Origin: Pseudomonas sp. B33.4
GTDB taxonomy: Bacteria; Pseudomonadota; Gammaproteobacteria; Pseudomonadales; Pseudomonadaceae
NCBI RefSeq assembly: GCF_034555375.1
Contig: NZ_CP140706.1
Coordinates: forward strand, 1,727,001 to 1,791,000
Length of the DNA stretch: 64,000 nucleotides
Direction: 5' to 3'
Under the pieces are notes generated by a model that ran no database searches, was not told where the DNA came from, and saw only the letters and a list, made by a program, of their open reading frames with translations. Below, piece after piece: positions 34,555 to 45,925 of this stretch. The stretch's first letter is position 1; each line of letters begins with the position of its first letter. A program made the translations under genes and the position numbers.

Positions 34555-35694
34555 ATGGCAGAGAGCGAAAGCGGTCAGGACAAAACAGAAGACCCCACGG
34601 AGAAACGTAAAAAGGACTCCCGTGAGAAGGGCGAGATTGCCCGTTCCAAAGAACTCAATACCCTGGCCGTGACCATGGCCGGTGCCGGTGCGCTGCTGGT
34701 GTTCGGCGGCATGCTGGCCGAAGACCTGATGGAGCTGATGCGCCTGAACTTCACGCTGTCACGCGAAGTGATCATGGATCAGGGCTCCATGGGTGCGTTT
34801 CTGTTGCAGTCGGGCCAGATGGCGCTGTTGGCGATCCAGCCGATCATGATCACCCTGTTGCTCGCGGCGTTGATCGGGCCGATTTCCCTCGGTGGCTGGC
34901 TGTTTGCGGCCGGTTCCCTGGCCCCTAAGTTCAGCCGGATGAATCCCGCTGCAGGCCTGAAACGGATGTTTTCGTTCAAGTCAGTGGTTGAGTTGCTCAA
35001 GGCACTGGCCAAGTTTTTGATCACCCTGGGTGTGGCGTTGGTGGTGTTGTTATCAGACGTCGATGACTTTTTGCGGATCGCCCATGAACCGCTTGAAATG
35101 GCGATCATTCACAGCGTTACTCTGGTCGGCTGGAGCACCTTGTGGCTGGCCTGCGGCCTGATCATCATCGCTGCCGTCGACGTGCCGGTGCAGCTCTGGG
35201 AGGCGCACAAGAAACTGCTGATGACCAAGCAGGAAGTGCGCGACGAACACAAGGATCAGGAGGGGCGCCCGGAGGTCAAACAGCGCATCCGCCAGACCCA
35301 GCGCGAAATGTCCCAGCGCCGGATGATGGCGGCGATTCCCGACGCCGACGTGGTCATCACCAACCCGACCCACTACGCCGTCGCGCTCAAGTACGACTCG
35401 GAGAAGGGCGGGGCGCCGATACTGCTGGCCAAGGGCAGCGACTTCTTGGCGTTGAAAATCCGCGAAATCGCCGTGGCCAACAACGTCATGCTCCTCGAGT
35501 CGCCGGGGCTGGCGCGTTCGATCTATTACTCCACTGAGCTTGAGCAGGAAATCCCCGGCGGGCTGTATCTGGCGGTTGCCCAGGTCTTGGCTTACGTCTA
35601 CCAGATCCGCCAGTTCCGCGCCGGCAAGGGCAAGCGCCCGGATCCGCTCAAGGACGACTTGCCGATTCCGCCGGACTTGCGCCGCGATTCCTGA
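34555..35694 (+). CDS. flhB: Export gate switch protein FlhB
   Basis: FlhB closes around the gate and switches substrate class after self-cleavage. The 379-residue protein begins with the charged N-terminus (SESGQDKTEDPTEKRKKDSR) typical of the family. Four membrane helices are spread through residues 30-210. The cleavage motif N270-P-T-H273 is intact in VVITNPTHYAVALKY, so self-cleavage is expected. In most pseudomonads flhA follows at close range; here an 8-kb island intervenes. Confidence 0.98.
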   Translation: MAESESGQDKTEDPTEKRKKDSREKGEIARSKELNTLAVTMAGAGALLVFGGMLAEDLMELMRLNFTLSREVIMDQGSMGAFLLQSGQMALLAIQPIMITLLLAALIGPISLGGWLFAAGSLAPKFSRMNPAAGLKRMFSFKSVVELLKALAKFLITLGVALVVLLSDVDDFLRIAHEPLEMAIIHSVTLVGWSTLWLACGLIIIAAVDVPVQLWEAHKKLLMTKQEVRDEHKDQEGRPEVKQRIRQTQREMSQRRMMAAIPDADVVITNPTHYAVALKYDSEKGGAPILLAKGSDFLALKIREIAVANNVMLLESPGLARSIYYSTELEQEIPGGLYLAVAQVLAYVYQIRQFRAGKGKRPDPLKDDLPIPPDLRRDS

Positions 35695-36098: not shown

Positions 36099-36140
36099 AA
36101 AAAACCGCCGGCCCGATTCAACGGGGTGGCGGTTTTTTTA
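36099..36140. terminator. Bidirectional terminator after cold-shock-like gene 1
   Basis: AAAACCGCC (36101 on) pairs with GGCGGTTTT (36128 on), with further CCG/CGG pairs inside, flanked by A-runs and T-runs. It serves the plus-strand gene and the minus-strand DUF6124 remnant that face each other. Confidence 0.85.
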
Positions 36141-36249
36141 TACCTGAAGACATGTGCTGGCCGTGAGGTCGCCTTCGCTTTTTTGAATCGACGGATTCGT
36201 AGGGGGAGGTGGGGTCGGTTTCGGGTGGGTTGGGTGTTGGTTTGATCAT
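36118..36249 (-). pseudogene. DUF6124-type gene remnant, copy A
   Basis: From ATG at 36249 the frame reads MIKPTPNPPETDPTSPYES and a few more residues identical or close to the intact copy at 37800-38159. It then diverges after about 24 residues and runs into the terminator (stop after 43 codons). The C-terminal 95 residues are gone, so this is a broken copy. Its whole upstream leader is kept. Confidence 0.85.
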
Positions 36250-36286
36250 GGTGAGACTCCGTGGTTGATTTAGCCGCCACGGCTCA

Positions 36287-36480
36287 TCGCTAAACAAGTA
36301 AAGGTGGCGGCTGTACGCAGGTTAGCGATCCGGGTCACAGAAACCCCGGGTAGACCCGAAGGTCTCCCACGCACAGCCACCATGACGCCAAGTGCAGATA
36401 GACAAAGCTGCAATTGAGACAGGGGATTGAGCATCTGTAAGGTATCGGATCGCTAAACCCGATCGCTGATTCGTCAGCGA
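36287..36480 (-). ncRNA. Structured leader RNA of DUF6124 unit, copy A
   Basis: On the minus strand an outer stem (GGTGGCTGTGCG... with ...CGTACAGCCGCCACC) encloses two hairpins, one with an AGACC-TTCG-GGTCT tetraloop stem and one with CCGGG/CCCGG arms. Mismatches of the outer stem on the plus strand become G-U pairs on the minus strand, which fixes the strand. A further hairpin (CGCTGA/TCAGCG) lies at 36464-36479. A possible minus-strand promoter, TTGTGC-N17-TATTGT, precedes it (36488-36516). Two other copies exist. It resembles phage-type C4 antisense RNA in layout, but this has not been checked. Confidence 0.65.
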
Positions 36481-36588
36481 CCGACCCACAATAGAACCCG
36501 ACCCCACAGCGCACAAGCCGGCGGATTCTGGCGTAGCTGTAGGCAATGGCGCAAGAATTTGTAGCCTGTGAGACGTGTCTGAAGGTGT

Positions 36589-36612
36589 CTTTTAAACGCC
36601 TGAGTTTAAAAG
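36589..36612. repeat. Inverted repeat upstream of RNA unit, copy A
   Basis: CTTTTAAAC-N6-GTTTAAAAG, perfect 9-base arms. The same element lies at the same distance from the DUF6124 start in copies B (38498-38521) and C (43055-43078). It is probably an operator or the outer end of the repeated unit. Confidence 0.75.
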
Positions 36613-36633
36613 GCGATTTGCACTGACTTCAGT

Positions 36634-36710
36634 GGCCCCTTCGCGAGCAAGCTCGCTCCCACATTTGCAATACATTTCCCTGTGGGAGCGAGCTTGCTCG
36701 CGAAAGGGCC
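36634..36710. repeat. REPIN (GAGCAAGCTCGCTCCC type)
   Basis: Arms TTCGCGAGCAAGCTCGCTCC and its reverse complement are separated by about 17 bases, the typical doublet arrangement of P. fluorescens REPINs. Confidence 0.92.
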
Positions 36711-36794
36711 ATCCCGGTCAGCAGAAAAATCTCGATCAAACCCCGATGTTAAATCACTGGTTAAATAAATCCGTCGCCTTTTCCAGAGAGACCG

Positions 36795-36832
36795 TTGGTC
36801 TGGAAATGCCATCCACCTGTCAACTCTTACAG
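36795..36832 (+). promoter_or_regulatory. Shared palindromic operator, copy 2
   Basis: TTGGTCTG (36795-36802), 14 bases, then CTGTCA-ACTC-TTACAG (36817-36832), ending 66 bp before the ATG of the 222-residue gene. One base of the second arm differs from perfect symmetry. Confidence 0.75.
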
Positions 36833-36898
36833 TAGACGGACGGCTGGCCATGACGTCGAAATAGGGGCGCAAGTTTACCGACCCAGGAGCGTACGATC

Positions 36899-37567
36899 AT
36901 GGCAGAGCGCATTTACCGAAAACTCGAGGGCATGGGCCTGGAATATGTTTCAGGGCGACTGGAACAGAACCCCAAGGAGCGGGCCATCCGTTACACCATC
37001 ACTTTCGACATGGATCTGGATTTCACCCATTTCAAACAGATGGCCAATGCTTATATCCCGGATTATCTCGACAACCCGATCAACGCGATCAGGCCTGAAC
37101 TGGACGGCCTGGCTTACCACTATTCCTACAACTACCTGTTCAGTGCAGCGGGAAGCATCCGCGATAATCAGGCGCTGTTCGAACTCTTCACCTCGCCTGG
37201 TTATTACAACGATCAATGGGCGACCGGCCCTCATCTGCAGGTGCGTTATGGCAAACCGGAGTTTGTGCAGGTCGGGCGAAAATTCCGCGTGACAGCACGC
37301 AGAGACTTCAGATCGCTGGATGACACGGGTCAGATCGAAATCGGAGATTTGCCGGTCATCCAGTTTCATTGGGCGCTCAATCTGCTGCAAACCGATCTGA
37401 TGATCCCTGGAGTCATTGCGCCAGTGACCAAGGTCGTGCTGATGTACATGGATGAGGACTTCGTTGAGGTCGAAGGTGAGCAGATTTTGCGGGGTACGCG
37501 CTACGTCAATGGCAAGCAACTGGGCTTCGGCAACATTGCGCCCAAGCAGATACTGACTGCGCAGTAA
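36899..37567 (+). CDS. Unknown 222-residue protein of the flhB-flhA island
   Basis: I do not recognise this protein. It is soluble, with no signal peptide or membrane helix, and rich in aromatic residues (LAYHYSYNYLFSAAGSIRDN; PGYYNDQWATGPHLQVRYG). The ATG at 36899 follows CAGGAGCGTACGATC. It has its own shared operator and its own terminator, so it is a single-gene cassette. Sharing the operator with the Ig-like gene and the cold-shock-like genes suggests it acts in the same response. Confidence 0.85.
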   Translation: MAERIYRKLEGMGLEYVSGRLEQNPKERAIRYTITFDMDLDFTHFKQMANAYIPDYLDNPINAIRPELDGLAYHYSYNYLFSAAGSIRDNQALFELFTSPGYYNDQWATGPHLQVRYGKPEFVQVGRKFRVTARRDFRSLDDTGQIEIGDLPVIQFHWALNLLQTDLMIPGVIAPVTKVVLMYMDEDFVEVEGEQILRGTRYVNGKQLGFGNIAPKQILTAQ

Positions 37568-37575
37568 CCAGCGTT

Positions 37576-37613
37576 AAAAAACGCCGTCCCGATTGCACGG
37601 TGCGGCGTTTTTT
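37576..37613. terminator. Terminator after the 222-residue gene
   Basis: AAAAAACGCCG-TC-CCG pairs with CGG-TG-CGGCGTTTTTT; runs of A and T at the ends make it bidirectional, again between convergent genes. Confidence 0.9.
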
Positions 37614-37640
37614 ATGCCTGAAGACTTGTTTTGGCTGTGA

Positions 37641-37745
37641 GGTCGCCTTCGCGGGCAAGCCCGCTCCCAGAGGTTCGGCGGTGTATCAGGGATCTGTGAA
37701 CGGCGCAGATCCCTGTGGGAGCGGGCTTGCTCCGGGCGGCGATCC
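37641..37745. repeat. REPIN (GGGCAAGCCCGCTCCC type)
   Basis: Left arm with GCGGGCAAGCCCGCTCCCAG and right arm with CTGTGGGAGCGGGCTTGCTC; about 40 bases apart. A second REP subtype compared with the one at 36634. Confidence 0.85.
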
Positions 37746-37799
37746 GACGAAGACGTCAGCAGCCACTACGCCTTACTCAGGGCTTGTCGCGGATTCTCG

Positions 37800-38159
37800 C
37801 TACTGCGGCAACTCCAGATTATCCATCACCCGATTCACCGCCAGCTCGCCGAGCATGATCAATTGCGCAATCCCCAGCAAAGTCCTGCGCTGCGACGCCG
37901 GTATGAGATGGGCGAAGTCATGGGCGATGGTTCTGGCTGAGGCGAGGGTTTCGCAGGCATCCGCCAGCAGTTCCTCGTTTTTGAAGTCCGCAGTGACCGC
38001 GTACATCCGGCGGGTTTTACGTGGCGGCGGCGTGGAGCCGGGTGGGCAGAGGTAGTGATCGAGCGCGCGGTCGGCGGCGTCGTGGAGTTTTTTTGAATCG
38101 AGGGATTCGTAGGGGGAGGTGGGGTCGGTTTCGGGTGGGTTGGGTGTTGGTTTGATCAT
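37800..38159 (-). CDS. DUF6124 family protein (intact copy B)
   Basis: A 119-residue protein starting MIKPTPNPPETDPTSPYESL. A helical stretch follows (KKLHDAADRALDHYLCPP) and the C-terminal half is hydrophobic and helical (IPASQRRTLLGIAQLIMLGE, ending RVMDNLELPQ). This matches a family I know from pseudomonads as DUF6124; its function is unknown. The ATG at 38159 is 9 bp from AGGAGCTTCACC. The frame stays open upstream through the leader, but that part is the structured RNA, not protein. Two broken copies lie nearby. Confidence 0.85.
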   Translation of the reverse strand: MIKPTPNPPETDPTSPYESLDSKKLHDAADRALDHYLCPPGSTPPPRKTRRMYAVTADFKNEELLADACETLASARTIAHDFAHLIPASQRRTLLGIAQLIMLGELAVNRVMDNLELPQ

Positions 38160-38197
38160 GGTGAAGCTCCTGAGGTTATGGAGCCACTCTTTCCCTG

Positions 38198-38389
38198 TCG
38201 CTAAACAAGTGAAGGTGGCAGCTGTACGCAGGTTAGCGAACCGGTCACAGGCACCCCGGTAGACCCAAAGGTCTCCCGCATACAGCCGCCATAACGTAAT
38301 TGCGGGCGAAAAGTCCCACAACGAAGCCACGAACGCTGATGCACTGAGATGGTCCGAGTCGCTAAACCCGATCGCTGATTCGTCAGCGA
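38198..38389 (-). ncRNA. Structured leader RNA of DUF6124 unit, copy B
   Basis: Same fold as copies A and C, ahead of the intact DUF6124 gene. The core lies at 38214-38291 with an outer stem, an AGACC-TTTG-GGTCT hairpin and an ACCGG/CCGGT hairpin. Base changes in the outer stem relative to copy A again give G-U pairs only on the minus strand. An inner TTCGCTAAC segment (minus strand) can pair with TTTAGCGA on either side of the core. The second partner lies about 45 bases before the DUF6124 start codon. Confidence 0.7.
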
Positions 38390-38497
38390 CCGACCCACAA
38401 TAGAACCCGACCCCAAAGCGCACAAGCCGGCGGATTCTGGCGTAGCTGTAGGCAATGGCGCAAGAATTTGTAGCCTGAAAGGCGTGTCTGGAGGTGT

Positions 38498-38521
38498 CTT
38501 TTAAACACTTCAGTTTAAAAG
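38498..38521. repeat. Inverted repeat upstream of RNA unit, copy B
   Basis: CTTTTAAAC-N6-GTTTAAAAG, perfect arms, spacer ACTTCA. It lies 64 bp from the 3' end of the Ig-like gene. Confidence 0.75.
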
Positions 38522-38584
38522 GCAAAAAGTCGGACGAAGATCAGGGGAAACCGTGGTCTGTCCCTGATAACGCGCACTTTTCTC

Positions 38585-41500
38585 TCAGGATGTCGGCACA
38601 AAAGTGAAAGCTGGCCCCTCAAACCCACCAACTCCTGTTGGTCCATATGCGATCGCATTGGGAGTGCCGTTTTCTTTTAGGTAATGACCGGCAACTATAT
38701 TGTTTTTCGTCGGTGCCTGCCATCGCACTTTATAACGAGGATCCATGCCCGGATCGATGCGTCTCAAAAAAACATTAAGTTCAGTGAAATTTTCGAGGAA
38801 TGCTTTGATTATTGGCTTTGCGTCCGTAGCTCCGGGCAGTTGCACTCCACCTTGTGCTAATCCCCATGCATGAATTTGATCAAATGAGAGCCTGTCAGTA
38901 GCTGCGGAGATTATCATTTTAAAAACGTTTGAGACGATGACCTGATATGAAAGCTGATTGTTAGATCCATCTCTGACAGTAATAACTGCGGATCCATTTT
39001 TAAGGCCAGTCACTTTGCCGGTAGTCCTGTCTACAGCTGCGATTGAAGGAATTGATGAGGTGAACGTGACTTCAGGAATTCCGCCTGTTGGTACTCGAGT
39101 CATCGTATTTCCCGAAACTTCTTTACTGTTCCATCCGTAGGACTGAAGCAACTTAACTCCATTCAGGGTCATTAGCGATTGGTCGATTGATAGCTTACGG
39201 ACGACGCGAAAAGTTCGAGCGGCCGACACGGCACCGGAGCCATACAACGCTTTGGCGGTAAAGCTGTGCGCAGCAACACTCAGGCCTGTCACCGGCAGTT
39301 CCCATTTGCCCGTTGCGGGATCGGCAGTCGCTTTACCTTTTGAAGTTGCACCGTCGAATACTTCGATCTGCTGACCCTTGGCCGCGACGCCGCTCAGGAT
39401 TACGGCAGTTTCCACGGTGACCCCGCCTTGGGGGATTTCGATATCGCTGGGAGAGCCTTTGACTGACGTCATCGTAGGGGCGACGTCTTCCGTGACCGTC
39501 ATTGTTCTCGCTGCCGACACCAGACTCGGTTGCCTCAGGTCTCTGGCGGTAAAGCTGTGCCTGGCTTTGCTCAGGTCTGAAACCGACAGACTCCAGATGC
39601 CGGTTACTCCATCGGCGACCTCTTGACCTTTGATAACCGTACCGTCGAGCACTTCAACGTCCCGCCCGGCTGCGGCAACGCCGCTCAAAATGACGGCCGT
39701 TTCCACGGTGAAGCCATCCTCGGAGATTTCGTTATCGCTCGACGAGCCTTTGACTGATGTCAATGTCGGCGCCCTGAGGGCTTCCACCGTCAGGAGTCGT
39801 ACATTGGAATAGGTCGATGTGGGGTGATAAAGGGATTTGGCAAACAACCGGCGCGCGCCGACTACAACCGTGATCGTGCATTCCCACAGGCCTGTGATTT
39901 CATCCGCGGTCGCGGTTCCCTTGAGCACCGCGCTTGCACCGTTGCCATCGTAGATCTCGACATCCTGACCCTTGCTGGCAGTGCCTTTGAGTGTCAGCGA
40001 TGTGCTGATAGTCGTTTGCTCATCAGGCACCTCCGCACCTTTGTCATCCAGCACATTGTCCAGCGTCGGCACAATGAGGGCCGTGACAGTGAGGTTGTAA
40101 GCAGCCGAGGCGGGATCGTCACCATACTTTCCTGTCGCGGTAAAACTGTGTTTCGTCACAGTCAGCCCCGACATGGTGTAGGTCCAGATTCCGGAGACCG
40201 GATCGGCCGTGACCTCAACAACGAAGGTAGCGCCATCGCGTATTTCGACGTTCTTGCCCTTGGCGCCCGTGCCGCTGAGCACCACGCTGGTTTCAACGGT
40301 CGTGCCACCCTCGAGAATATCCTTGCCGCTCGGCGATCCCTTGACCGAGTCGATGGTTGGCGGATCGAGTGCCACCGGTTCACCGATCACAAACTCCAGC
40401 ACATTCGAATAGCTGGTCTTGTTGCCGACTGCCCGGAGAATTTCGTAGCTCACTTGCACAGTCTTTCCGCGATTAGGCTCGATGTGCTGCGCCACAAACG
40501 CGGCGTTCAGTGGGAAATCGACGTCCTTGTCCTTGGACAGCTCATTGTGCGTTTTGGAGTCCGTGACAGGCGTCTGACCTTCTACTTTCCAAGTGTAAGT
40601 TACGATGTCCTTGGCTTTGGTCGGATTGGCCACCGGCCGTGGGGCGGTGATTTTGCTGGCTCCGCCCGGAAGGTCCTCGGGGTCCAGCACGCCATCCTTT
40701 TCACCCAGCACGATGGGTTTGACCAGCTCCCGCTGCGGCTCGCCAATGTTCAACAGCGAGGCGTGCAAAGAGGCGCGACGGGTGATGGTGCCGTTTTCGT
40801 CGCTCAGCAGGTTGTACGACAGATCCAGCGTGCCGCCCTCCAGGGTTTTGCCGTGTTTGCCGGCGACGGTGACGATGAACCCCTTGAGGTCATTGGCCTC
40901 GTCATCGCTGGGGAAATACCACTCCAGTTCCGGGTCGTAAGTCGTCAGGTCGGCCCGGATGCCGAACCATTTGAGCTCGATGGCTTTGTCCGTGGTGATC
41001 AATGGATCGTGGGGAATGCGGATGCGGTATTCGGGCGCGTCGGGGTCGAGCGCGCCGCTGATCTGGTCGATTGCGATGGGCGCGGCCAGGCGTGTCGGTT
41101 CGCCGATAACGCTGTAGGCGCGAGACTTGGATCTGGAGTTGTCGACCACGACGCCGCCGCGGCGTACATGATAGGAATACACCACCGTGCGTTTGGCCAA
41201 GGCGCGCAGGGTGCTGTTCTTGTGCGCGATCGAGACTCGCACCGGCGGCGTGGTTTCAATACGCTGGATCGCCGTTTCACTGATCTCTTTACCTTCGTCG
41301 TCGGTACCGATAACGCTGAGGTAGATCTCGTCGTTCTTTTTGAAGATGTTCACGTCATCCGCCCAGACCTCCACCAGCGGATCATCGTCCCCCAGCATCT
41401 CCAGATCCACGATGAGACCGTCGGCCTGTTTGAGGATGGGCGCCCCCAGGCGCAAGCCCTGGGTGTCGACGGCAATATAAACGGCCTCGCACCAGTCTGC

Positions 41501-42241
41501 GGACTCGTTGTACACGCGGTCGCGGATCTTGTAGTTGACCGACACCCCGTCGGAGTCTCCGGCTGAAAGGATGGTGGCTTCGTCGGCCAGAACCACAATG
41601 GGATTACCCTCTGGATCGTCGAGCTGTTCCTGGGTGACGGGCTCGGACTCCACGTTTTTCCCGGCCCAGGCCAGGATGATCACGTCACCGACGGCGACAT
41701 TCTCGTAGAGCAGGCCATCGCCGGGTTTGGGTTTGGCGTAAACCAGCACGCCTTGCTTGGCAGTGACCTTGTCGACACCGTCGCGTACCACATCCGGCGG
41801 ATCGAAGGTCATGCTCAGTTCGGAGTGGCCATACTCGGGGTTGGTATCCTGACCGCCGGGCAGTTCGAGTTTGACGACAAGCTTGAGCGTCGGCCCGGGT
41901 TCCGCGGCCTGACTGACACGCTTGACCTCGTAGGACAGATCCCAGTCGCCGCTGAGCAAGCGCTGCGGCGGGACGAACAGGGTGACGCGCTCACCGATTT
42001 CGACCTGATCGGTGATGGTCTTTTGCGCCACCATGATGGTGTTCAGCAACAACTTGCAGTTATCGCCCACATTCATGTTGGACCAGGCCGGACACTGGAT
42101 CTTCATCCCCAAGTCGGGGTAGGTGAGTCGTGCGGCCGCGAGATTGACGCCCCAGGTGCCGTCGCCGAGATCTCGACCGCCGGAGATTTCCGGGTCGAGC
42201 AGGGCCAGGAGCGAGATTTCCTTGCGCGGTTGGATGAGCAT
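38585..42241 (-). CDS. Large repetitive Ig-like domain protein
   Basis: A 1218-residue protein of unknown function. The N-terminal half holds repeated beta-rich modules with the pattern LDP...P...KD-V-W-G. Four Ig-like repeats of about 97 residues follow (near residues 630, 728, 824, 921), each with a form of SVKGSPS, TVETAVILSG, VEVFDG and HSFTAK. Then comes a BIG2-like domain (about 1015-1097) and a distinct 120-residue C-terminal tip. No signal peptide, membrane helix or anchor was seen. The ATG at 42241 follows AGGAGTGCCCGTC; the frame opens earlier but without a good start. DNA of the tip is visibly more AT-rich than the rest. It has its own shared operator. Confidence 0.88.
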   Translation of the reverse strand: MLIQPRKEISLLALLDPEISGGRDLGDGTWGVNLAAARLTYPDLGMKIQCPAWSNMNVGDNCKLLLNTIMVAQKTITDQVEIGERVTLFVPPQRLLSGDWDLSYEVKRVSQAAEPGPTLKLVVKLELPGGQDTNPEYGHSELSMTFDPPDVVRDGVDKVTAKQGVLVYAKPKPGDGLLYENVAVGDVIILAWAGKNVESEPVTQEQLDDPEGNPIVVLADEATILSAGDSDGVSVNYKIRDRVYNESADWCEAVYIAVDTQGLRLGAPILKQADGLIVDLEMLGDDDPLVEVWADDVNIFKKNDEIYLSVIGTDDEGKEISETAIQRIETTPPVRVSIAHKNSTLRALAKRTVVYSYHVRRGGVVVDNSRSKSRAYSVIGEPTRLAAPIAIDQISGALDPDAPEYRIRIPHDPLITTDKAIELKWFGIRADLTTYDPELEWYFPSDDEANDLKGFIVTVAGKHGKTLEGGTLDLSYNLLSDENGTITRRASLHASLLNIGEPQRELVKPIVLGEKDGVLDPEDLPGGASKITAPRPVANPTKAKDIVTYTWKVEGQTPVTDSKTHNELSKDKDVDFPLNAAFVAQHIEPNRGKTVQVSYEILRAVGNKTSYSNVLEFVIGEPVALDPPTIDSVKGSPSGKDILEGGTTVETSVVLSGTGAKGKNVEIRDGATFVVEVTADPVSGIWTYTMSGLTVTKHSFTATGKYGDDPASAAYNLTVTALIVPTLDNVLDDKGAEVPDEQTTISTSLTLKGTASKGQDVEIYDGNGASAVLKGTATADEITGLWECTITVVVGARRLFAKSLYHPTSTYSNVRLLTVEALRAPTLTSVKGSSSDNEISEDGFTVETAVILSGVAAAGRDVEVLDGTVIKGQEVADGVTGIWSLSVSDLSKARHSFTARDLRQPSLVSAARTMTVTEDVAPTMTSVKGSPSDIEIPQGGVTVETAVILSGVAAKGQQIEVFDGATSKGKATADPATGKWELPVTGLSVAAHSFTAKALYGSGAVSAARTFRVVRKLSIDQSLMTLNGVKLLQSYGWNSKEVSGNTMTRVPTGGIPEVTFTSSIPSIAAVDRTTGKVTGLKNGSAVITVRDGSNNQLSYQVIVSNVFKMIISAATDRLSFDQIHAWGLAQGGVQLPGATDAKPIIKAFLENFTELNVFLRRIDPGMDPRYKVRWQAPTKNNIVAGHYLKENGTPNAIAYGPTGVGGFEGPAFTFVPTS

Positions 42242-42304
42242 GACGGGCACTCCTGCCGAGGGTTTGGGCGATGGAGTGATTAGGACGCGGAATCGAGAAA
42301 AGCG

Positions 42305-42346
42305 CACCTGTCAGATCTGACAGGTGACGACGGTTAAACGACGAGT
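42305..42346 (-). promoter_or_regulatory. Shared palindromic operator, copy 3 (Ig-like gene)
   Basis: CACCTGTCAGA joined to its exact reverse complement forms a perfect 22-bp palindrome at 42305-42326, with the core CTGTCA-GATC-TGACAG. On the minus strand CTCGTCG lies about 15 bases upstream of the core. The palindrome ends 63 bp before the Ig-like start codon. Confidence 0.8.
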
Positions 42347-42362
42347 GGTCGCTTACTCTATG

Positions 42363-42404
42363 AAAACCGCCGTCCCGGTTGATCCGGAATGGCGGTTTTT
42401 TTGG
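42363..42404. terminator. Terminator between DUF6124 copy C and the Ig-like promoter
   Basis: AAAACCGCC (42363-42371) pairs with GGCGGTTTT (42391 on), with inner CCGG/CCGG. It isolates the Ig-like gene from transcription coming from copy C. Confidence 0.85.
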
Positions 42405-42479
42405 CTGGAAAGATGTGTTGCCTGGAAGACAGACTTCGTGAGCAAGCTCACTCCCCCAGGGATCATCAGTAGTGGCGCT

Positions 42480-42747
42480 TTACTACGGCAACTCCAGATT
42501 ATCCATCACTCGATTCACCGCCAGCTCGCCGAGCATGATCAATTACGCGATGCCCAGCAGCGTCCTGCGTTGCGACGCGGGGATTAGATGAGCGAAGTCA
42601 TGAGCGATAGTTCTGGCTGAGGCGAGTGTTTCGCTGGCGTCGGCCAGCAGTTCCTCGTTTTTGAAGTCTGCGGTGACGGCATACATCCGGCGAGCTTTAC
42701 GGGGAGGTGGGGTCGGTTTCGGGTGGGTTGGGTGTTGGTTTGATCAT
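42480..42747 (-). pseudogene. Broken DUF6124 gene, copy C
   Basis: From ATG at 42747 the frame matches MIKPTPNPPETDPTSP, then meets an in-frame TAA at a deletion that removes about 92 bp compared with copy B. The remaining C-terminal part (MYAVTADFKNEELLADA-like) is recognisable but shifted and carries another stop (GIA-stop-L). A degenerate REP half (GTGAGCAAGCTCACTCCC) lies just beyond its 3' end, near 42437. Confidence 0.88.
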
Positions 42748-42783
42748 GGTGAAGCTCCTAGAGTCATTGGAGCTGCCAACGTT

Positions 42784-42946
42784 CGCTGCGAGACGAATGA
42801 GGGTGGCAGCTATACGCGGGTCGCAGACCGGGACTCTAGAACCGGCAGACCCGAAGGTCTCCCACGTACAGCCGCCACAAGCAAAGCGGATGTTGTGCGT
42901 CCAGAGATCGACGGGCTGCGAGACCCGATCGCTGATGTGTCAGCGA
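42784..42946 (-). ncRNA. Structured leader RNA of DUF6124 unit, copy C
   Basis: Core at 42802-42877 with an outer stem, an AGACC-TTCG-GGTCT hairpin and a CCGG/CCGG hairpin. The inner pairing segment has changed (plus strand GGGTCGCAG instead of GGTTAGCG), and both flanking partner segments have changed with it (CTGCGA instead of CGCTAA). A terminal hairpin CGCTGA/TCAGCG and a TATTGT-type -10 box are kept. Confidence 0.65.
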
Positions 42947-43054
42947 CCGACCCACAATAGAACCCGACCCCAAGGCGTACAAGCCGGCGGATTCTGGCTT
43001 GGCTGTAGGCAATGGCGCAAGGATTTGTATCCTCGAACGCGTGTCATGAGGTGT

Positions 43055-43078
43055 CTTTTAAATACAGGGGTTTAAGAG
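43055..43078. repeat. Inverted repeat upstream of RNA unit, copy C
   Basis: CTTTTAAAT-N6-GTTTAAGAG, two differences from copies A and B, at the same distance from the RNA core. Confidence 0.65.
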
Positions 43079-43185
43079 GTGAAAGATTGGGCGACTGTCT
43101 GAGTGAATACGTGGACTGTCCCTGAAAGCTCCCTGCGCTTTGTCGAGATTCGCCAGATCTGCGGCTCGATTTCTGAGGCTTACCT

Positions 43186-43795: not shown

Positions 43796-45925
43796 GTGGA
43801 TCGCTCTCAGTTATTCAACACTGCTCGCACAAACGTTGCCGACCTCAGTCGAGGCAATCTGGGCGTGCCGTTGCTGTTGCTGGTGATGCTGGCGATGATG
43901 ATGCTGCCGGTGCCGCCGTTCCTGCTCGACGTGTTTTTTACCTTCAACATTGCCCTGTCGATCGTCGTCCTGTTGGTCTGCGTGTATGCGCTGCGACCGC
44001 TGGATTTTGCCGTGTTCCCGACGATTCTGCTGGTGGCGACGCTGCTGCGGCTGGCGTTGAACGTGGCCTCGACGCGGGTGGTGATGCTCCACGGTCAGGA
44101 TGGTCACGCCGCTGCCGGTAAGGTGATTCAGGCCTTCGGTGAGGTGGTGATCGGCGGTAACTACGTGGTTGGTATCGTGGTCTTCGCGATTCTGATGATC
44201 ATCAACTTCGTCGTGGTAACCAAAGGTGCCGGGCGGATTTCCGAGGTGAGCGCGCGTTTCACCCTCGATGCGATGCCCGGCAAACAAATGGCGATTGACG
44301 CCGACCTCAACGCCGGTCTGATCGACCAGAACCAGGCCAAGGCGCGCCGTCAGGAAGTCGCCCAAGAGGCCGAGTTCTACGGTTCGATGGACGGTGCCAG
44401 CAAGTTCGTCCGTGGTGACGCCATCGCCGGCCTGCTGATTCTGTTCATCAACCTCATTGGCGGCATGGCTGTCGGTATCTTCCAGCACAACATGAGCTTC
44501 GGCGATGCCGGTCGGGTTTACGCCTTGCTGACCATCGGTGACGGTTTAGTGGCGCAATTGCCATCACTGTTGTTATCGACAGCAGCAGCGATCATGGTGA
44601 CCCGTGCTTCCGGTTCGGAAGACATGGGCAAGCAGATCAACCGTCAGATGTTCGCCTCGCCGAAAGCGTTGGCGGTGGCGGCCGGTCTGATGGCAGTCAT
44701 GGGCCTGGTGCCGGGCATGCCGCACTTCTCGTTCCTGAGCATGGCTGCGCTGGCCGCCGGTGGCGCGTACCTGTTCTGGAAGAAGCAGAACGTGGCCAAG
44801 GTCGTGGCGTTGGAAGAGGTCAAGCGCCAGCAGGATTTGCTGCCGTCGCCGGCCCGCGCCATGGAAACCAAAGAGCTGGGCTGGGACGACGTGACGCCGA
44901 TCGACATGATCGGCCTGGAAGTCGGTTATCGCCTGATTCCGCTGGTGGATCGCAACCAGGGCGGGCAATTGCTGGCGCGGATCAAGGGCGTGCGCAAGAA
45001 GCTCTCGCAGGATCTGGGCTTCCTGATGCCGACCGTGCACATCCGCGACAACCTCGATCTGGCGCCGAGCGCTTATCGCCTGACCCTGATGGGCGTGATC
45101 CTCGCCGAAGCCGAGATCTATCCGGACCGCGAGCTGGCGATCAACCCGGGCCAGGTCTACGGCACGCTCAACGGTATCAACGCCAAAGATCCGGCTTTCG
45201 GCCTGGAGGCGGTGTGGATCGAAATCAGCCAGCGTGCGCAGGCACAATCGCTCGGTTACACCGTGGTCGATGCCAGCACCGTGGTCGCGACGCACTTGAA
45301 CCAGATTCTGTACAAACACTCCAGTGAGCTGATTGGCCACGAAGAAGTGCAGCAACTCATGCAATTGCTGGCCAAAAGCTCGCCGAAACTGGCAGAAGAG
45401 CTGGTGCCGGGCGTGGTCTCGTTGTCGCAACTGCTCAAGGTTCTCCAAGCGCTGTTGGCCGAACACGTGCCGGTGCGCGATATTCGCAGCATCGCCGAAG
45501 CCATCGCCAACAACGCCGCCAAGAGTCAAGATACCGCCGCGCTGGTGGCTGCGGTGCGCGTCGGCGTATCCCGCGCCATCGTCCAAAGCATTGTAGGCAC
45601 TGAGTCCGAGCTGCCTGTGATCACCTTGGAACCAAGGTTGGAACAAATATTGCTCAATAGTCTGCAGAAGGCAGGACAAGGCTCGGAAGAGGGCGTTCTG
45701 CTGGAGCCAAGCATGGCCGAGAAGCTGCAGCGTTCGCTCATCGAAGCGGCGCAGCGTCAGGAAATGCAAGGTCAGCCGGTGATCCTTTTGGTCGCAGGCC
45801 CGATCCGCGCGATGCTCTCGCGCTTTGGCCGCCTCGCAGTCCCTGGGCTGCATGTGCTGGCCTACCAGGAAATACCGGACAACAAGCAAGTGACCATCGT
45901 TGCGACAGTAGGGCCCAACGGCTGA
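43796..45925 (+). CDS. flhA: Export gate protein FlhA
   Basis: FlhA is the nonameric export gate protein whose cytoplasmic ring receives substrates and chaperones. The 709-residue protein has about eight membrane helices in the first 330 residues (GVPLLLLVMLAMMMLPVPPF and others). The conserved FHIPEP region follows (GKQMAIDADLNAGLIDQNQA, KFVRGDAIAGLLILFINLIGG), and then the cytoplasmic domain. The start is GTG at 43796, 8 bp after GGGGAAAACC. It begins an flhA-flhF-fleN-fliA run. Confidence 0.97.
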   Translation: MDRSQLFNTARTNVADLSRGNLGVPLLLLVMLAMMMLPVPPFLLDVFFTFNIALSIVVLLVCVYALRPLDFAVFPTILLVATLLRLALNVASTRVVMLHGQDGHAAAGKVIQAFGEVVIGGNYVVGIVVFAILMIINFVVVTKGAGRISEVSARFTLDAMPGKQMAIDADLNAGLIDQNQAKARRQEVAQEAEFYGSMDGASKFVRGDAIAGLLILFINLIGGMAVGIFQHNMSFGDAGRVYALLTIGDGLVAQLPSLLLSTAAAIMVTRASGSEDMGKQINRQMFASPKALAVAAGLMAVMGLVPGMPHFSFLSMAALAAGGAYLFWKKQNVAKVVALEEVKRQQDLLPSPARAMETKELGWDDVTPIDMIGLEVGYRLIPLVDRNQGGQLLARIKGVRKKLSQDLGFLMPTVHIRDNLDLAPSAYRLTLMGVILAEAEIYPDRELAINPGQVYGTLNGINAKDPAFGLEAVWIEISQRAQAQSLGYTVVDASTVVATHLNQILYKHSSELIGHEEVQQLMQLLAKSSPKLAEELVPGVVSLSQLLKVLQALLAEHVPVRDIRSIAEAIANNAAKSQDTAALVAAVRVGVSRAIVQSIVGTESELPVITLEPRLEQILLNSLQKAGQGSEEGVLLEPSMAEKLQRSLIEAAQRQEMQGQPVILLVAGPIRAMLSRFGRLAVPGLHVLAYQEIPDNKQVTIVATVGPNG

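Follow-up and report, generated by a model that had tools for sequence, protein, structure and literature searches.

Chromosomal C4 antisense RNA cassettes in Pseudomonas sp. B33.4 carry cassette-specific pairing codes and probably silence their own genes

C4 is a classical phage repressor RNA; the CI RNA of phage P4 is another processed phage immunity RNA that pairs within its own operon, although its target genes differ from those of C4 cassettes. In the passages of PMC5320573 available to us, processing of C4 from a longer transcript by RNase P is reported for phages P1 and P7, and apparently in Acinetobacter, and the codes of P1 and P7 lie a few bases apart and do not cross-react. The same passages describe Group 1 C4-like small RNAs (sRNAs) of Acinetobacter baumannii, with 21 similar sequences in one genome; the C4-like sRNAs of this species have variable a′ and b′ segments and, by RNA sequencing, are expressed and apparently processed. 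C4 and the leader element c4-a1b1 were reported in Proteobacteria and phages by Weinberg et al. 2010 (PMC2864571, in the passages available). We analysed a window of 64,000 nucleotides (nt), positions 1,727,001-1,791,000 of the one-contig 6.60-Mb genome of Pseudomonas sp. B33.4, in which three related elements, copies A, B and C, precede intact or broken genes of family DUF6124. We read them as chromosomal C4 antisense RNA cassettes in which each C4 mainly silences the gene of its own cassette, and give this reading a probability of roughly 0.85.

Rfam 15 at its curated cut-offs gave six matches in the window, three to C4 (RF01695) and three to c4-a1b1 (RF03163), all on the minus strand, with one c4-a1b1 preceding each C4. 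The original prediction, made from the letters of this DNA, had called the RNA C4-like and proposed a comparison with the Rfam model; all three copies exceeded the cut-off of 45 for C4 and that of 46.7 for c4-a1b1. isrK (RF01394) had no match at its cut-off within the window. By this test the three elements are C4 RNAs, beyond a mere similarity of logic. Their parts are given below; the C4 segments a′ and b′ are predicted to face a1 and b1 in the leader and a2 and b2 before the start codon.

36300..36387, minus strand: C4 antisense RNA, copy A (RF01695, 64.8 bits; a′ 36322-36328, b′ loop 36333-36347)
38211..38296, minus strand: C4 antisense RNA, copy B (RF01695, 72.7 bits; a′ 38233-38239, b′ loop 38244-38256)
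42799..42882, minus strand: C4 antisense RNA, copy C (RF01695, 67.5 bits; a′ core 42821-42826, b′ loop 42832-42842)
36442..36494, minus strand: c4-a1b1 leader element, copy A (RF03163, 49.0 bits; a1 36450-36456)
38351..38403, minus strand: c4-a1b1 leader element, copy B (RF03163, 50.4 bits; a1 38359-38365)
42908..42960, minus strand: c4-a1b1 leader element, copy C (RF03163, 49.9 bits; a1 core 42916-42921)
36287..36293, minus strand: predicted a2 target site, copy A (complements its own a′ exactly)
38198..38204, minus strand: predicted a2 target site, copy B (complements its own a′ exactly)
42786..42791, minus strand: predicted a2 target site, copy C (complements its own a′ core exactly)
36255..36268, minus strand: b2 region with Shine-Dalgarno sequence, copy A (placed by position before ATG; complementarity to b′ short, with G-U pairs)
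38166..38177, minus strand: b2 region with Shine-Dalgarno sequence, copy B (placed by position before ATG; pairing with b′ interrupted)
42754..42765, minus strand: b2 region with Shine-Dalgarno sequence, copy C (complements its own b′ loop exactly over 8 nt)
36488..36516, minus strand: predicted promoter, copy A (TTGTGC, 17 nt, TATTGT; from sequence, and of a class enriched in register)
38397..38425, minus strand: predicted promoter, copy B (TTGTGC, 17 nt, TATTGT; from sequence, and of a class enriched in register)
42954..42982, minus strand: predicted promoter, copy C (TTGTAC, 17 nt, TATTGT; from sequence, copy C not being anchored in the promoter survey)

Phage P1 itself scored 68.8 bits for RF01695 and 51.0 bits for RF03163, and the window copies scored alike. 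The order in the P1 record (promoters-a1-b1-C4-a2-b2-icd start) is the order in the B33.4 elements, with 7-nt a sites in both. The start codon lies 48 nt past the C4 match in P1 and 51, 52 and 52 nt past it in A, B and C. In the immI operon (c4-icd-ant) of P1 and P7, icd and ant stand behind C4; copy B of B33.4 has DUF6124 instead. The first gene after C4 in P1 carries the annotation of a cell-division inhibitor.

The original prediction rested on an inner segment with two possible partners. TTAGCGA was found inside A (36322) and B (38233), with a third occurrence at 39172 outside the elements, and the only four occurrences of TCGCTAA in the window are the flank sites at 36287, 36450, 38198 and 38359. 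The swap proposed for copy C was also present, with TCGCAG at 42821 and CTGCGA at both flanks (42786 and 42916); these shorter words occur elsewhere in the window too (TCGCAG at 37951; CTGCGA at 37890 and 39037). The partner placed 40-50 bases before the start corresponds to the a2 site, which we measured at 38-45 nt ahead of the start codons (36249, 38159 and 42747, minus strand), and one segment with two partners is the arrangement of a′ versus a1 and a2 annotated in P1. The complementarity of b′ to b1 and b2 matches in copy C and is imperfect in A and B; for copy A, the longest exact match of b′ to the searched b2 stretch is 5 nt and lies outside the b2 region itself. The observation behind the original prediction is thus confirmed, and its interpretation as C4 is supported; neither contrary outcome that it had named, absent covariation or purely plus-strand transcription, agrees with the sequence evidence below.

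The C4 structure consists of an outer stem with two inner hairpins, 27 pairs in all. Over A, B and C, the minus-strand RNA gave 68 Watson-Crick cells, 11 G-U cells and 2 unpaired cells, versus 68, 0 and 13 for the plus-strand RNA, in agreement with the claim that G-U pairs are kept on the minus strand only. Fold z-scores of the three copies were -4.8, -5.0 and -5.5 on the minus strand and -2.9, -2.3 and -3.0 on the plus strand. A C(UUCG)G hairpin loop, reported earlier, is present in A and C, but the loop of B is UUUG. Covariation had also been claimed; the three copies alone hardly show it, their changes being almost all one-sided, but it is strong over the 43 C4 copies of the B33.4 genome. 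Across these, 96.1% of cells were paired, 16/27 pairs had changed on both sides, and none of 500 shuffles reached this pairing and covariation; slid alignments paired in 35-47% of cells (36% after a one-column slide). G-U cells over the 43 copies numbered 158 on the minus strand versus 9 on the plus strand. C4 alone is predicted to fold very stably, with a′ and b′ left unpaired.

We compared the pairing segments of 249 cassettes, reduced to 135 by dropping identical code strings. The 7-nt a′ matched its own a1 in 125/135, its own a2 in 122/135 and both in 118/135, whereas among cassettes with different a′ fewer than 1% of pairings matched (126/16,282 for a1 and 138/16,282 for a2). Random pairing of a′ gave at most 27 (a1) and 26 (a2) matches in 10,000 trials. 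There are 24 types of a′ with both partners, the commonest 7-mer being present in 26/135 cassettes, and the b′ loop has 126 forms among the 135. At least 7 nt of b′ matched the cassette's own b2 in 97/135, versus 675/18,090 other pairings (3.7%). Calculated duplex energies pointed the same way: none of 10,000 permutations reached own pairing for a′-a1, a′-a2, b′-b1 or b′-b2, and two control pairings gave no signal. Within the B33.4 genome all 43 codes differ, and an exact a2 match together with at least 6 nt of b2 was found in 24/43 own versus 6/1806 foreign pairings. In three other genomes both a′ partners were exact in 25/30, 26/30 and 24/26 usable cassettes; distinct codes in these samples numbered 29/30, 29/30 and 26/26, and the two repeated codes belong to close neighbours on the chromosome. 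Since a′ and b′ vary between copies together with their targets, silencing by each C4 should be largely confined to its own cassette.

The cassettes are numerous in this genome and in the genus. The B33.4 genome has 43 C4 matches (42 above the cut-off), 41 c4-a1b1 matches (20 above the cut-off) and 39 DUF6124 genes. A DUF6124 or DUF3077 gene lies within 800 nt downstream of 37/43 C4, and 35/39 DUF6124 have a C4 at most 800 nt upstream. C4 was present in 22/24 genus genomes, B33.4 included, with up to 43 matches, and in 2/12 genomes of other families of the order, one each; DUF6124 was found in 18/24 versus 0/12. In a wider draw C4 was present in 275/298 genus genomes, counts that rest on at most 14 scored candidates per genome, and no C4 was found in the 14 control genomes searched. 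Among 79 DUF6124 loci from other Pseudomonas, chosen by protein alone as the best-scoring part of a longer list, C4 stood in register about 50 nt upstream in 78; the sole exception (L168) has just 130 nt of upstream sequence.

DUF6124 is rare in annotated phage (1/50,697) and plasmid (0/72,556) records. In 64 viral or proviral contig loci with DUF6124, C4 lay within 100 nt before the gene in 54, farther upstream in 5 and nowhere in 5; many of these loci are located at the end of a contig and possibly belong to host flank. The one annotated phage record, EU982300 from Pseudomonas fluorescens Q8r1-96 (L092:3868-4354), has C4 directly before DUF6124, and also a holin, a colicin M-like gene and prtR. 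A P2-like prophage contig (L198:74-5360; minor tail, GpU and tail X genes adjoin) has C4 and two side-by-side DUF6124 frames between tail genes, together with a Dsr1-like (SIR2) defence gene, so that C4-DUF6124 is phage cargo near a defence gene there. isrK was also matched at some C4 loci (L001, L073, L089, L090 and L091). One of these, in the B33.4 genome (L001:102-2345), combines an AlpA gene, c4-a1b1, isrK and C4 matches and a DUF3077 gene; this locus resembles a phage satellite and possibly reflects the ancestral setting. Another, from a different family of the order (L090:1044-1232), is a single isrK and C4 pair in a more phage-like arrangement.

The gene behind copy B is intact, and those behind A and C are broken.

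37800..38159, minus strand: intact DUF6124 gene of copy B, 119 amino acids (aa) (PF19619, 69.6 bits, cut-off 27)
36118..36249, minus strand: shortened frame after copy A, 43 aa (DUF6124 resemblance limited to its start)
42697..42747, minus strand: 16-codon frame after copy C, read as the start of the broken DUF6124
42498..42683, minus strand: DUF6124 part of copy C with internal stop (PF19619 match with one TAA)

An intact gene carrying the code of copy A occupies the same site in a related genome (L072). DUF6124 is constrained: across 51 comparisons against copy B, the median ratio of nonsynonymous to synonymous change (dN/dS) was 0.165, and values ran from 0.03 to 0.49. The choice of these from 78 genome units required a 119-aa frame and over 5 synonymous differences. 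Structure prediction of DUF6124 gave no indication of function. From its position, DUF6124 or DUF3077 is the probable target gene of C4. Downstream of four C4 of the B33.4 genome (L008, L036, L039 and L040) stand frames of 94-106 aa belonging to neither the DUF6124 nor the DUF3077 family, and Pfam gave no match for the two of these that were tested.

Each of the three elements has, on the minus strand, a pair of sigma-70-like boxes, 17 nt apart and directed into it. In 109 anchored cassettes, promoter-like boxes stood before the first leader stem in 78, versus 1/327 control windows, and 75 of the 78 box pairs lay 7-8 nt from the leader stem. This register suggests that the cassettes are transcribed on the minus strand from the predicted promoters. 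Upstream of all three promoters (36586-36612, 38498-38524 and 43054-43080) is an imperfect palindrome, TTTTAAAC...GTTTAAAAG, possibly an operator.

We propose that the minus-strand promoter would produce a single transcript with the a1/b1 leader hairpins, C4, a2/b2 with the ribosome site, and the DUF6124 gene. By analogy with P1 and Acinetobacter, C4 would be cut out as a stable small RNA. Its a′ would pair with a2, and its b′ loop with the Shine-Dalgarno-containing b2. The ribosome site would then be covered and translation of the DUF6124 of the same cassette blocked; a1/b1 may act as decoy, in processing control or as a cis switch. C4 loops appear built to cover the ribosome site of the small gene. 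Several observations weigh against own-cassette silencing. Copies A and C retain C4 despite a broken DUF6124, and within 800 nt 6/43 C4 lack DUF6124 or DUF3077 and 4/39 DUF6124 lack C4. In copy B, pairing of the b′ loop with b1 and b2 is interrupted (longest exact matches 3 and 4 nt), and exact a1 and a2 matches were found in only 30/43 B33.4 copies. When whole duplexes with stems were considered, the own target ranked first in only 18/43; the copies may therefore not all be fully independent.

Some of these data could be read differently. If a1 and a2 competed for a′ within one transcript, the leader would be an attenuator or conformational switch and a separate antisense RNA would be unneeded. 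The fit of a single 7-mer to both a1 and a2 in 118/135 cassettes agrees with such a switch, as do the alternative structures published for the related leader of IsrK of Gifsy-1 (PMC4825925, in the passages available). However, C4 folds very stably by itself with a′ and b′ free, and the phage member of the family is a processed trans-acting RNA in the accessible parts of PMC8546580 and PMC5320573. We consider a cis switch in place of an antisense RNA unlikely; it is compatible with own-cassette repression, and the two are not mutually exclusive. Equally improbable here is a regulon like that proposed for the Acinetobacter C4-like sRNAs, in which each C4 would have its main targets in other cassettes or in host mRNAs of unrelated genes. 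Such a regulon would account for the a′ 7-mer shared by many copies (26/135 for the commonest) and for a C4 beside a broken gene in A and C, but combined a2 and b2 matches favoured own pairings (24/43 versus 6/1806) in a comparison that covered the cassettes of the B33.4 genome only.

That the copies are a DNA-level repeat, such as a repetitive extragenic palindromic (REP)-like or recombination element, acting at no stage as RNA, is very improbable. They are dispersed repeats with other palindromes close by, and plus-strand folds were also better than shuffles; against this, G-U pairs are tolerated on one strand only (158 versus 9), pairs change on both sides, the promoter is in register and the reading frame downstream is constrained. 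Own-cassette silencing by C4 remains the reading that we prefer.

The codes and the genes appear, from their sequences, to have different histories. Eighteen loci adjoining flhB or flhA, together with the window, gave 27 units with 13 code strings (strings as cut, some being near-variants). In these units b1 and b2 generally change along with b′; among the 23 units other than B whose full frame could be measured, gene identity to copy B was 0.81-0.93. Against the close relative G019, near-identical cassettes keep their code among the matches listed; the pair L024/L245 has a′ in common but not the b1, b′ and b2 stretches. Within the B33.4 genome, L018 and copy B share 95% identity in the gene stretch and 97% in the promoter stretch, and 54% in the b′ loop. 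No b′ loop is shared in any of 61 B33.4 pairs with at least 75% gene identity.

A test of 75 of 133 cassettes from four genomes, three of them represented by their 30 best-scoring C4, gave a similar result; cassettes were left out if cut by a contig end or if they lacked a frame of 95-140 aa with the P[ND]PP motif. The nearest protein was in the same genome for 68/75 cassettes (20.0 expected) and the nearest b′ loop for 20/75, and b′ is shared in none of the 11 same-genome pairs whose proteins are 90% or more identical. With equal 14-nt stretches, the nearest neighbour was in the same genome for 41.7, 45.0 and 43.9 of 75 in inner coding stretches (0/300 shuffles). Promoter stretches kept a genome signal (30.8 and 36.1 of 75), and the first codons had a weak one (28.4; 8/300 shuffles). 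No genome signal was detected for b′ (20.8 of 75; 119/300 shuffles) or b2 (17.5; 217/300), against a chance value of 19.9. At matched gene identity, identical b′ was found in 2/126 same-genome versus 162/3046 other pairs (120 of the 135 units); this suggests that a genome avoids repeating a code, on small numbers and with less weight than the nearest-neighbour test. Two results weigh weakly against so simple a separation of code and gene. The C4 3′ stem (27.3; 3/300 shuffles), hairpin 1 (25.2; 13/300) and the spacer (26.1; 22/300) have a weak genome signal, so that code and gene are cleanly decoupled in b′ and b2 alone. In the pair of L018 and copy B the spacer is as divergent as the loops, indicating that whole modules differ, beyond the code bases.

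A tentative reading, to which we give less than even odds, is that the C4-DUF6124 cassettes form a chromosomal heteroimmune population. A cassette would be expressible only if no resident C4 has its code, and arrivals or duplicates would be selected to differ, as in P1 and P7; codes would be drawn from a pool common to different species and be swapped at fixed sites, with DUF6124 homogenised or amplified in each genome. It is suggested because codes differ within genomes, near-identical genes have unrelated codes, and b′ and b2 have no genome signal. Alternatively, the divergence of the modules may be old, with gene conversion acting to either side of them and the codes free of selection. If code diversity is indeed selected, the heteroimmune population would be immunity-group biology without a phage, which is testable.

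The three elements sit between an FlhB-family gene (34555-35694) and an FHIPEP/FlhA-family gene (43796-45925), and a Bac_export_1 (FliR-type) gene precedes this interval. The flhA stretch has 95.1% identity to that of Pseudomonas sp. PB106, among named loci reaching flhA. Among the cassettes (38585-42307, minus strand) lies the gene for a 1240-aa protein that has internal repeats and bacterial Ig-like domains, and parts of it recur next to C4 cassettes in other species.

C4 in phages and Proteobacteria and multi-copy C4 in Acinetobacter were already known; in the papers and passages accessible to our search we found no earlier description of private-code cassettes with their own gene. C4-DUF6124 cassettes went equally undescribed in the literature searched, which takes in only a minority of subscription papers, so that an earlier description elsewhere is possible. 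DUF6124 was without mention in that literature, and DUF3077 appeared in one accessible passage, on a mutation. Dozens of C4 versions on one chromosome, most with their own target gene, are a natural library of antisense-target pairs with which to measure how few base changes blind antisense RNAs to each other. The cassettes also offer a way into the roles of two small uncharacterised proteins, DUF6124 and DUF3077, which are amplified in Pseudomonas.

Among described systems, the Acinetobacter C4-like sRNAs resemble the B33.4 copies in being multi-copy in one bacterial genome. They are described with unknown targets, whereas the B33.4 copies mostly have their own a1/b1 and a2/b2 and DUF6124 or DUF3077; this comparison rests on the published description. 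The IsrK locus of the Salmonella prophage Gifsy-1 (RF01394; PMC4825925, in the passages available) has a leader arrangement related to that of C4 cassettes, and its downstream genes orf45, anrP and antQ are unlike those of the window. Unlike immI of P1 and P7, the B33.4 cassettes are chromosomal, lie between flagellar export genes, number tens per genome and have DUF6124 or DUF3077 downstream; in them, a phage repressor seems to have been turned into a family of separately addressed locks.

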